Assembly: GCF_000193375.1 (NCBI RefSeq)
Contig: NC_015315.1
Location: 1,000,622-1,064,621 of the forward strand
Length of the DNA: 64,000 nt
Direction of reading: 5' to 3'
Source: Thermoproteus uzoniensis 768-20
GTDB lineage: Archaea > Thermoproteota > Thermoprotei > Thermoproteales > Thermoproteaceae
The notes under the pieces were generated by a model. That model made no database searches. It saw only the letters and a list, made by a program, of their open reading frames with translations, and was not told the DNA's origin. This document shows positions 10,587-14,429 of this stretch, piece by piece (position 1 is the first letter of the stretch; every line of letters starts with the position of its first letter). The position numbers and the translations under genes are program-made.

Positions 10587-11636
10587 CTATTCGAAGAGTT
10601 TTACCATCTTCCTATTCTTGAGATATGTCGCGTAGTCTATGTATATCTTGTCGGCTATCATGTCGTCCACCTTGGGGACGTCTGCCCTCTGCCTTTCCAG
10701 AACGACGTCGGTCACGTTTAGGACGAACGCGTTGGAGCCGGCGCCCGAGCCGAAGGTCACCAACAAGATCTTGTCGCCCGGCTTCGCTTGCTCCAGGACT
10801 CTGGCGAGGCCCATCAAGGCAGACGCGTTGTAGGTGTTGCCTATGTGGGTCACCACTATCCCCGGCTTGACCTTCTCGGGCGGGAAGCCCAACATGGAGG
10901 CCGCGCGCATGGGGAACCTCCCGTTGGGCTGGTGGAATATGGCGTAGGCGAAGTCGGACACCTTGTAGCCGTACTTCTCCATTACGCCCTTGGCGGCGCC
11001 GACCACGTGTCTGAAATAGGCCGGCTCTCCCGTGAAGCCCTCCCCGTGCATGGGGTACGGAGAGCCCTCCCTGCGCCAGAAGTCGGGCGTGTCGGAGTTG
11101 TAGGTGTATATAGCCTCGAACTCGGCCGCCACGCCGTCCTTACCTATGACGTAGGCGACTCCGCCGCTACTGGCCGAGTAGTCCAGGTGCTCCCCCGGCT
11201 CGCCTTGGGACGTGTCCGTGCCTACGGCAAGTCCGTACTCCACCCTGCCCGAATCAACGAGGCCGGCTATGGCGACTATCCCGTCGGAGGCCGCCTTACA
11301 GGCGAACTCCATGTCCACAGTGAATACGTTGTTCGTGAGGCCGAGGGCGTCGATCAGGATAGACGATATGGGCTTCACGGCGTATGGCTTGGACTCTGTG
11401 CCGGAGTACACGGCCCCTATCCTCTTGGGGTCGACGTTGCCTCTCCTGAGAGCCCTTCTGGCGGCTTCCGTGGCTATGGTCACCGCGTCCTCGTCATACC
11501 CCTCCACGCTCTTCTCGTAGACCAGATAGAGGTCCACGATCCTGGTGGGGTCGTCGCCCCAAGTAGCGGCGATGTCCTCGGTCCTTATCCTGTATTTGGG
11601 TATGTAGGCCCCCCAGGAGACTATGCCGGTCCTCAT
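10587..11636 (-). CDS. hmgS: hydroxymethylglutaryl-CoA synthase
   Basis: Condenses acetyl-CoA with acetoacetyl-CoA to HMG-CoA, the committed precursor step of the mevalonate pathway for archaeal lipids. The 349-residue thiolase-fold protein has the nucleophile Cys113 in [11 protein letters not shown] and the catalytic His235 in [11 protein letters not shown], so its active site looks intact. The start overlaps the DUF35 gene stop by 4 bp, so the two are coupled. In methanogens, thiolase, DUF35 protein and HMG-CoA synthase form one complex that channels acetoacetyl-CoA. The same three genes are adjacent here. Confidence 0.95.
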
Positions 11637-12031
11637 GGCCTCGGCCTAAACTTGTACCCGTACATCACGAGCCCGTATTTCCCGTCCACGACCACGCGTC
11701 TGAAGACCACCTCCATCTTCTGGCCGGCCTTCAACTTCTCCGGCGCCGCGTCGACTATTTGGCCGAGCACCTTGACGGGGCCCAGCTTCACGAGGCCTAT
11801 CACCAACGGCTTCTGTTTGAGGAAGTCTGTGGGGACCGACCTCAACACTGTGAACTCCACCAGCTCCCCCTCGTGGGGCAGTTGAAAGTCCTCCAGCTCC
11901 GCCGACCCGCACTTGGGGCATTTGACCGCCGGCGGGTAGTAGACCTCGCCGCATTTCCTACACCGTTTGGCCACGAGGCGGTAATAGCTAGGTATGTTGC
12001 GCCAGTATAGGGGAACCGACTCGTGTTCCAT
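11633..12031 (-). CDS. DUF35 zinc-ribbon/OB-fold acyl-CoA-binding protein
   Basis: A 132-residue protein with an N-terminal rubredoxin-like zinc ribbon ([20 protein letters not shown], four Cys) and a C-terminal OB fold ([26 protein letters not shown]). Members of this family bridge thiolase and HMG-CoA synthase in the archaeal complex and provide a shared CoA-binding site. A TATA-like GATATTAACGAG about 24 bp upstream, in the short gap after the thiolase-like gene, suggests that DUF35-hmgS can also be transcribed separately from that gene. Confidence 0.92.
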
Positions 12032-12063: not shown

Positions 12064-13176
12064 CTATAACCCCAGAACGACAACGGTCGAAGTCCTATCG
12101 ACGCCGCCCATGGAGTGGACCACGCCTATAGAGCCGTCGACTCTCTTGAAGGGCCCTCTGCCGATAAGTTGCCAGACCACCTCTACGGCTTGGTAGACGC
12201 CGGTGGCGCCCATAACGTTCCCTCTGCTCTTCAGGCCGCCGCTGAGGTTGACCCTGACCTCGGCGCCCGACCTCAACGAGGCGAGGAGCCCGCCGCGCGG
12301 GGCCAGGCCGAGGGCCTCGACCGCGAGGACGCCCAATATAGAATAGGAGTCGTGGACCTCGGCGGTAGCCACGTCGCGCGGCGTCACGCCGGCCATTCTG
12401 TAGGCCCTCTCGGCGGCCTCTCTGGCCGAGTACAGCACGTCGTACTCCTGCCTTGCGTTGAAGGGCACGGCGTTGGTGGAGCTCCACATGCCCAACACTT
12501 TCGCCACGCCCTTTCTGCTACACAGAACGGCCGCGGCGGCGCCGTCCGCCATAGGCCCCACGTCGTACAGCCTCAAGGGGTCGCTGACCAGCTCGCTGTC
12601 GAGGACGTCTTCAACCTTCGCCTGCTTCCTTATATAGGCGTAGGGGTTCGAGGCGCCGTATTTGTGCATGAGGACGGGCCAGAGGGCTAGGTCCTCGTAC
12701 TTGTACTCGTACTTGGCCAGATACATCTTGGCCATAAGCGCGGCCTGCGCCGCTGGGGTCACGCCGAAATACCGCTCGTAGACGCTGTCTGTGGCGGTCG
12801 AGTATATGTCCTGTTGCTGGTTTGAAAGGACGTCGTTGGGCTTGTCGACGCCGACCACCGCGACGCAGTTGTAGAGGCCCGACCTAACCGCCATGGCGGC
12901 CGCCATGAGGGCCGAGCCGCCAGAGCCGTCGGCGTTCTCGACTCTGTAAGTGGCTATCTTGTCGAGGCCCAGCCGCGAGGCTATGTAGGCCCCCAACATC
13001 TGCTGTTTATCCGCCTGCTCGGCGGTCGCCGACGCCACGAAGAGGGCGTCCAGCTCCGGATAGCCGGCGTCTTTTAGAGCCTCGTCGAGGACTCTCGCCG
13101 CCATCTCGTCGATGTTCAGGTTGTAGTGGCGGCCTGTCTGCATCATGGCCGTGCCGTTTACCCATACGTCTTGCAT
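12064..13176 (-). CDS. thiolase-like protein lacking the catalytic Cys and His
   Basis: A 370-residue protein of the archaeal SCP2-type thiolase family, lying in the position of acetoacetyl-CoA thiolase beside DUF35 and hmgS. The fold signatures are present: EVHDSYSILGVLAVEALGL, NLSGGLKSRGNVMGATG and a C-terminal Gly-rich strand. At the place where archaeal thiolases have VEAACASGG, this protein reads VENADGSGG, so Asp83 replaces the nucleophilic Cys. In the GHPVGATG motif the His is replaced by Asn320 (RGNVMGATG). Canonical thiolysis or condensation is therefore unlikely. It may be a structural partner of the HMG-CoA synthase complex or have another activity. The ATG at 13176 is 26 bp from a TATA element. 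Confidence 0.88.
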   Translation of the reverse strand: MQDVWVNGTAMMQTGRHYNLNIDEMAARVLDEALKDAGYPELDALFVASATAEQADKQQMLGAYIASRLGLDKIATYRVENADGSGGSALMAAAMAVRSGLYNCVAVVGVDKPNDVLSNQQQDIYSTATDSVYERYFGVTPAAQAALMAKMYLAKYEYKYEDLALWPVLMHKYGASNPYAYIRKQAKVEDVLDSELVSDPLRLYDVGPMADGAAAAVLCSRKGVAKVLGMWSSTNAVPFNARQEYDVLYSAREAAERAYRMAGVTPRDVATAEVHDSYSILGVLAVEALGLAPRGGLLASLRSGAEVRVNLSGGLKSRGNVMGATGVYQAVEVVWQLIGRGPFKRVDGSIGVVHSMGGVDRTSTVVVLGL

Positions 13177-13211: not shown

Positions 13212-14429
13212 GTGGAGGAAATAATCGAGGCCCTGGACAGCGGGAAGCTGAAGCTACACGAGCTCGACAAGGAGTTGGGCGACTCCAACAAGGCGGCGGA
13301 GTACAGGAGGAGGTTCCTGGAGAGGAAGCTGGGCGTGAAGCTGGAGGCCATAGGGTCCACCGTGATAGACTTCAACAAGGCGGTGGGCAGAAATATCGAG
13401 AACCCCATAGGCGCCGCCCAAATACCGATAGGCGTGGCCGGGCCTCTGCTAGTCGAGGGGGAGTACGCGAGAGGCATGTTCTACATACCGCTGGCCACGA
13501 CCGAGGGCGCCCTCGTGGCTTCGGTCAACAGAGGCGCCAAGATAGTGACGGAGTCCGGCGGAGCGAGGGCTAGGGTCGTCAGAGACGGCATGGCGAGGGC
13601 GCCCCTCTTCAAGCTACCGTCCTTGATAGACGCCTTGGATTTCGTCAAGTGGGTCGAGGCCCATAGGGAGGAGATAAAGAGGGCCGCGGAGTCCACCACT
13701 AGACACGGGAAGCTGAAGGAGATACAGCCGTTCGTTGTGGGGAACAACGTCTGGCTCAGGTTCGTGTTCGAGACCGGCGACGCCATGGGGATGAACATGG
13801 CCACCATAGCGTCGGAGGCGGCCGCTAAATACATAGAGAGGGGCTACCCCAAGGCCGAGCTGGTCGCGTTGAGCGGGAACATGTGCGTCGACAAGAAGCC
13901 CAACGCCGTCAATTTCCTGATGGGGAGGGGCAAGACGGTCGTAGCCGAGGCGTTGATAAGGAGGGAGGCGCTGTCGAGGCTCGGAGTGACTCCTGAGGCC
14001 GTACACGAGGTCAACGTGAGGAAGAACCTCCTCGGCTCTGCCCTCGCCCATTCCTACGGCTTCAACGCGCACTTCGCCAATATAATAACTGCGATATTCA
14101 TCGCGACGGGGCAAGACGTGGCGCAAGTCGTCGAGTCGAGCATGGGCATTACCTGGACCGAGCCGCGGGAGGAGGGGCTCTACATATCGGTTACTCTCCC
14201 AAGCCTTGAGGTCGGCACTGTCGGCGGCGGTACCGGGCTCCCGACACAACGGGAGGCCCTCTCCATGTTGGGGGTCGCGGGGTCGGGCGACCCGCCCGGC
14301 GTCAACGCGCTCAAATTCGCCGAGATCGTGGCGTCGGCGGTCCTCGCTGGGGAGCTGAACCTAATACTTGCGCTGGCTAGAAACGAGCTCGCTAGAGCCC
14401 ACCAGGCGTTGGGCCGTTCTAGGCAATAA
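13212..14429 (+). CDS. hmgA: 3-hydroxy-3-methylglutaryl-CoA reductase
   Basis: Reduces HMG-CoA to mevalonate with NAD(P)H, the key step of isoprenoid lipid synthesis. The 405-residue protein has the class I catalytic set: Glu98 (LATTEGAL), Lys in the DKKPNAVNF segment, Asp in GDAMGMNM and the late His in [10 protein letters not shown]. The nucleotide- and CoA-binding residues surrounding them look intact. No membrane segments are present, as usual in archaea. It is divergent from the thiolase-like/DUF35/hmgS genes, completing the upper mevalonate pathway. Its 3' end overlaps the opposing roadblock-like gene by 11 bp. Confidence 0.96.

Follow-up and report, generated by a model that had tools for sequence, protein, structure and literature searches.

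A mevalonate-operon thiolase subunit without its nucleophilic cysteine in Thermoproteus uzoniensis and other Thermoproteota

Archaeal thiolases encoded in mevalonate operons are generally assigned the formation of acetoacetyl-CoA, the first isoprenoid step. In the stretch of Thermoproteus uzoniensis DNA analysed here (64,000 nucleotides, called the window below), the corresponding gene encodes a thiolase-like protein that has an aspartate in place of the nucleophilic cysteine. This raises the questions of what such a protein does beside an intact HMG-CoA synthase and of where the acetoacetyl-CoA is made. The T. uzoniensis genome is a single contig of 1,936,063 bases, and its closest named relatives belong to Thermoproteus and Pyrobaculum.

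Active site and partners of the thiolase-like protein

The gene (positions 12064–13176 of the window, stop codon included, minus strand) is an open reading frame with an ATG start that encodes 370 amino acids. Its product matches Pfam Thiolase_N and Thiolase_C_1 (PF00108 and PF22691), both over their cut-offs, which makes it a member of the thiolase superfamily by fold. Together with the genes of a DUF35 protein (11633–12031, minus strand; 132 amino acids, zinc ribbon and OB fold; PF12172 and PF01796, best PDB match 6esq_E) and of HMG-CoA synthase (HMGCS; 10587–11636, minus strand; 349 amino acids; PRK04262 and TIGR00748 of NCBIfam over cut-off, PDB match 6esq_I), it forms one minus-strand row, the gene adjacency of the thiolase/DUF35/HMGCS complex, in which the HMGCS and DUF35 genes overlap by four bases. 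HMG-CoA reductase (HMGR; 13212–14429, plus strand; PF00368, TIGR00533 over cut-off) is the divergent neighbour. The four zinc cysteines of the DUF35 protein are intact, and HMGCS carries the Glu81, Cys113 and His235 of a catalytic synthase.

The active site of the thiolase-like protein is altered at two of its catalytic places. In HMM alignments to PDB entries 7yvy and 6esq, Asp83 (codon GAC, 12928–12930, minus strand) falls on the nucleophilic cysteine, which active thiolases carry in VEAACxSGG, and Asn320 (codon AAC, 12217–12219, minus strand) falls on the histidine of the GHP/GHA motif, GHPxGATG in active thiolases; His275 of the HD motif (12352–12354, minus strand) is kept. The score against the NCBIfam equivalog NF053570 is 229.5 bits, short of the cut-off of 600. 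An earlier note on this DNA had claimed that the nucleophilic cysteine and the GHP histidine are lost while the gene stays beside DUF35 and an HMGCS with intact Cys113 and His235, and both claims hold. Another cysteine in the active site, the observation that the earlier note had named as fatal to its reading, was looked for and not seen: the protein has just two cysteines, Cys104 and Cys219, neither of them within a catalytic motif, and homologs with the nucleophilic cysteine often have these two as well. A frameshift or sequencing error is rejected likewise, as the same aspartate occurs in all readable orthologs of the order (see below).

Thiolases cannot form their acyl-enzyme without the nucleophilic cysteine, so that Asp83 leaves no acyl-enzyme by the known thiolase mechanism, and it is highly likely, judging from these residues, that the window protein has lost thiolase activity. 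In an AlphaFold2 model calculated from an alignment of 42 sequences (pLDDT 95.7), its predicted fold agrees best with 6et9_C, the thiolase in the thiolase/DUF35/HMGCS complex of a methanogen (Z 58.5, r.m.s.d. 1.4 over 368 residues). In the model, Asp83 stands immediately before helix 85–98, as a nucleophile would.

Spread and history in Thermoproteota

Conservation in relatives was examined at the orthologous loci of 40 genome regions of the order, where 37 orthologs of families f1 and f3 are readable at the nucleophile. Asp occupies this place in 37 of 37. The GHP histidine is present in none (Asn in 22, Phe in 11, Tyr in 4), and the HD place is His in 33, Ser in 2 and Cys in 2. This check, which the earlier note had proposed, thus came out in favour of its claim. 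Family f2, a single genome (G019), has an intact thiolase adjoining HMGCS.

Loci in the rest of the class and the phylum were located through HMGCS, and 60 further stretches were read; six of the 28 class genomes outside the order were left out, and the 38 further phylum genomes were picked from the better HMGCS matches, with f13, f15 and other long or weak-match groups set aside. The cysteine, HD and GHP motifs are intact at all 20 loci of f6–f12 and at three of the four of f23. The cysteine is lost at 27 Thermoproteota loci outside the order sample, namely in other families and in the fourth f23 genome, its place being taken by Glu (10), Asp (9), Gly (5), Leu, Gln or Thr (one each), and nine of these 27 lack the HD histidine as well. 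A Cys-less subunit, for brevity a dead one, is found in 64 of the 99 orthologs compared. At 52 dead loci the thiolase, DUF35 and HMGCS genes lie together on one stretch, and neither HMGCS (Glu81, Cys113 and His235) nor DUF35 (its four cysteines) has lost any of these residues at the 76 loci checked, 52 of them dead and 24 Cys-bearing. No thiolase adjoins HMGCS at 10 of the 38 phylum loci; these ten genomes and one more keep an intact copy elsewhere. The distribution thus resolves into three states: the operon has an intact copy, it has a dead one, or an intact copy lies elsewhere. Our verdict is that, across much of the sampled Thermoproteota, the operon has repeatedly lost the activity that opens the mevalonate pathway while keeping the subunit, which supports and widens the interpretation in the earlier note. 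The Sulfolobales are, we assume, among the lineages with a dead subunit.

Several arrangements at these loci deserve separate mention. In the g8 genomes (L041, L045, L046, L049, L051, L052, L055, L056 and L057) the pseudo-thiolase/DUF35 pair adjoins HMGR, away from HMGCS. In f13, f19, f28, f29 and other phylum genomes the HMGCS matches lie in frames of 500–560 amino acids, compared with 350 in the window, and a domain fusion is possible; in G119, G152 and G202 (f29, g61; one genus) one in-frame TAG lies inside the HMGCS match.

The dead subunit is far from unconstrained. Within Thermoproteus, dN/dS is 0.059–0.088 for the pseudo-thiolase, similar to the 0.050–0.111 of HMGR, and 0.026–0.073 for HMGCS, values that are rough as synonymous sites are near saturation (dS about 1–1.6). 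The ratio of thiolase to HMGCS distances is 1.69–2.32 in five dead groups versus 0.72–1.06 in three Cys groups; measured against HMGCS, the pseudo-thiolase thus changes at roughly double the rate of its Cys-bearing homologs, though under strong purifying selection. The corresponding DUF35/HMGCS ratios are 1.53–1.99 in dead and 1.27–1.48 in Cys groups. Thirty-two positions are fixed in intact sequences and relaxed in the order, among them the active-site motif positions 86, 87, 318, 320, 321 and 357, and only positions 78, 83 and 145 are both switched and fixed between the two sets. Considering (i) the purifying selection, (ii) the relaxed active-site positions, and (iii) the intact partners, the pattern is that of a protein kept without catalytic constraint.

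The history of the loss was examined in a gene tree of 112 rows, from which the incomplete L068 and L080, the fragmentary L153 and L170, nine duplicates and the window copy (identical to L063) were left out; the paralogs L002, L027 and L029, whose cysteine is shifted, are in the tree and were assigned to no group. Dead HMGCS-linked sequences fall into two groups of 56 and 8 rows, and a Ser-type group stands separate. The AU test weakly rejects a single loss for all dead sequences (p 0.032). It does not reject two groupings that would imply further losses, one that unites the dead order rows with the intact L058 (p 0.206) and one that places the dead f23 row among its intact relatives (p 0.637), and the tree contains long branches. 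The cysteine was probably lost at least twice by this reading of the sequences. One genome, G218, has one dead and one intact copy, and an old duplication or a transfer is therefore also possible.

Other sources of acetoacetyl-CoA

If the operon thiolase is dead, acetoacetyl-CoA has to come from another enzyme, and other thiolases with intact motifs, which the earlier note had suggested looking for, are indeed present in the same genome. Two classical thiolases of T. uzoniensis, at about 591.8–593.0 kb and about 353.1–354.3 kb, have intact Cys, NEAF, GHP and C-terminal Cys motifs (the active-site residues of classical thiolases were read in this genome only), and the former adjoins a fused 3-hydroxyacyl-CoA dehydrogenase/enoyl-CoA hydratase, with gene names assigned by eye. 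An SCP2-type thiolase with the motif VEAACASGS lies near 602 kb. A table for T. tenax in the part of PMC3189178 available to us has a separate acetoacetyl-CoA beta-ketothiolase for the carbon-fixation cycle.

The T. uzoniensis genome also holds thiolase-like genes of other kinds. A tandem pair without the Cys motif (L004/L005, contig C1, 193470–195562) has similar adjacent pairs in many relatives. A paralog at L002:1492–2631 (minus strand) has its cysteine one position early (VEACAAAGA) and a DUF35-like ORF overlapping its 3′ end; a gene of the 4-hydroxybutyryl-CoA dehydratase type, recognised by the PF11794 match at 833 kb, lies some 7 kb away.

The family of classical thiolases, TIGR01930, scores over its cut-off in 44 of 45 order genomes. 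The exception is G019, which is also the sole order genome that keeps Cys and His in its HMGCS-linked thiolase. Across the class, TIGR01930 is found in 36 of 61 genomes, all in f1, f3, f4 and f5 and none in f2 or f6–f12, and among the 99 genomes with a readable ortholog it accompanies the dead subunit in 55 of 64 and the intact one in 1 of 35 (G206), a difference for which Fisher's p is 4e-17 with genomes that are not independent. The gene tree yields only two independent pairs, so the association cannot reach significance by that test. Of the nine dead-subunit genomes lacking a classical thiolase, six carry a different Cys-type thiolase, which belongs to the SCP2 kind. The remaining three, all in f27 (G105, G209 and G159; L158, L161 and L169), have no recognisable Cys-thiolase genome-wide; G105 is presumably Fervidicoccus fontis. 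Besides the dead subunit, these three encode only a thiolase-like protein of the Ser type (NTSGSGG), beside which lies a separate DUF35-like gene. In several lineages, a classical thiolase has apparently replaced the complex thiolase in this reaction. In the part of PMC6105217 available to us, SSO0534 is given as an acetoacetyl-CoA thiolase in a pull-down, an entry set aside here because its locus could not be linked to the dead subunit.

Possible roles of a dead subunit

In the methanogen complex, DUF35 joins thiolase and HMGCS, and the CoA site is shared (PMC12329534 and PMC6392133, each seen in excerpt). Excerpts of PMC3533463 and PMC6996347 provided general background only. The T. uzoniensis trio resembles that of Methanothermococcus thermolithotrophicus (6ESQ/6ET9) in its three homologous genes, in the fold of the thiolase subunit (Z 58.5 to 6et9_C) and in its intact HMGCS and DUF35 residues, and the formation of a complex in T. 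uzoniensis is assumed here from homology and gene order. It differs in that its thiolase subunit lacks the nucleophilic cysteine and the second catalytic histidine, which makes channelled acetoacetyl-CoA synthesis impossible by the known mechanism. A second relative in architecture is the PhlABC acyltransferase of Pseudomonas protegens (5M3K), likewise a three-part assembly in which one of the two thiolase-superfamily subunits has lost its catalytic residues. It is the mirror image of the archaeal case and has no known mevalonate role. As excerpts of PMC6392133 describe it, the HMGCS-like PhlA is dead, lacking both the Cys and the Glu of HMGCS, and is believed necessary for assembly, whereas the thiolase-like PhlC is active. 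PhlABC is a precedent for the T. uzoniensis trio, in that it shows a dead partner persisting in the same architecture.

We consider it probable that the window protein is the thiolase subunit of an archaeal thiolase/DUF35/HMGCS complex, no longer active as a thiolase and retained in a non-catalytic role as scaffold, CoA-docking subunit or both, with acetoacetyl-CoA made elsewhere. The pseudo-thiolase would still dimerise and bind DUF35 and, through it, HMGCS; it may thereby hold the HMGCS assembly together, the scaffold role that we infer, and/or preserve the shared CoA-docking site. A stand-alone classical thiolase would make acetoacetyl-CoA, which would enter from solution, and the thiolase-to-HMGCS channel would then be gone. 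A dead subunit still serving the assembly is the most economical reading. Against it speak the three f27 genomes that have the dead subunit and lack a recognisable Cys-thiolase, the classical thiolase of G206 next to an intact subunit, the two copies of G218, and the g8 genomes, in which the pair is separated from HMGCS.

A regulatory or docking subunit that binds CoA or acetoacetyl-CoA without turnover and gates or feeds the HMGCS site is an unlikely full account. It would fit the CoA site common to all three proteins of the methanogen complex (excerpts of PMC6392133 and PMC12329534) and the related SCP2-thiolase-like protein of Trypanosoma brucei, TbSLP (5AB6; Z 48.2), crystallised with acetoacetyl-CoA and malonyl-CoA according to PDB entry titles. 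TbSLP differs in standing outside any mevalonate operon and, in the part of PMC12329534 at hand, in having no DUF35 partner. The accelerated evolution of the dead subunits argues against a tight ligand site.

Equally doubtful, in our view, is the proposal that the acidic residue is no scar and that the protein is a carboxylate-for-cysteine subunit whose former active site now serves another purpose: the residue would be a base for non-covalent Claisen- or aldol-type chemistry, or the protein would be a specialised receptor that takes up acetoacetyl-CoA and passes it to HMGCS. Among the sampled loci, a carboxylate at the cysteine place is fixed in Thermoproteaceae and the sister family and is the preferred replacement in the rest of the phylum, and this strict acidic preference at position 83, with the HD histidine kept in the Thermoproteus family, could mean function at the old active site. 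If true, a new type of subunit would have evolved repeatedly at the first committed steps by which archaea make their lipids.

New chemistry in the narrower sense, with the carboxylate as general base in non-covalent aldol, retro-aldol or decarboxylation chemistry on a CoA thioester, strikes us as quite improbable. The aspartate throughout the order, Asp or Glu at 19 of the 27 other loci, the place of position 83 among the three switched-and-fixed columns and the HD histidine of 33 of the 37 order orthologs speak for it, but the partner groups drift (the GHP histidine to Asn, Phe or Tyr, the HD histidine to Ser or Cys in 4 of 37), and 8 of the 27 other loci have Gly, Leu, Gln or Thr. An aspartate at a helix end can stabilise the helix without any chemistry, and such a role for Asp83, which precedes helix 85–98 of the model, is possible. 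The steroid aldolases Ltp2–DUF35 (6OK1) and Sal–DUF35 (9MYR), Cys-less like the window protein and similar to it in fold and partner (Z 44.1 and 43.9), are a parallel for chemistry other than thiolysis. According to excerpts of PMC12329534, however, they perform retro-aldol cleavage with other residues, Tyr/Tyr or Tyr/Cys and a YDxF/Y motif, and this Tyr-Asp motif is absent from the window protein, which reads VHDSYS. The archaeal thiolase-like protein ST0096 of Sulfolobus tokodaii (4YZO) also has its nucleophilic cysteine replaced (by Ser in the alignment), but it resembles the separate Ser-type group, in which HD and GHP are kept.

A 4-hydroxybutyrate supply, followed here through PF11794, is very improbable as the explanation. 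PF11794 has a match near 833 kb in the T. uzoniensis genome and exceeds its cut-off in 21 of the 61 genomes of the class and in none of the 25 belonging to f2 and f6–f12, and T. uzoniensis is given with the gene cluster of the cycle in the Table 1 and Fig. 4 available from PMC12794621. Yet in 11 of the 16 f3 genomes searched, every one of the eight from g5 and g6 included, no PF11794 match reaches the cut-off, and these genomes still have Asp in the pseudo-thiolase and a classical thiolase. The dead subunit also occurs in G001 (L074), which we take to be P. aerophilum. This species lacks the succinyl-CoA and succinic semialdehyde reductase genes, as far as the excerpted PMC12794621 goes. Simple decay towards gene loss, as the absence of the gene beside HMGCS at 10 of 38 phylum loci might suggest, is scarcely credible in the face of a dN/dS of 0.06–0.09 and one and the same Asp in 37 order orthologs, and the intact copy elsewhere in all ten of those genomes makes them look like gene moves.

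The probable reading thus remains that of a subunit without thiolase activity, kept for the assembly. No report of a Cys-less thiolase in a mevalonate complex was found in the literature searched; a PNAS 2018 paper outside that search may mention one. For many of the sampled Thermoproteota, the acetoacetyl-CoA-making role of the operon thiolase is probably wrong. The three states of the loci, with the enzyme intact in its operon, dead yet retained there, or intact at another site, make up a natural series that bears on why subunits without chemistry persist and on whether acetoacetyl-CoA channelling is dispensable, and, with the Sulfolobales presumably among the affected lineages, the question would be testable in genetically tractable archaea.
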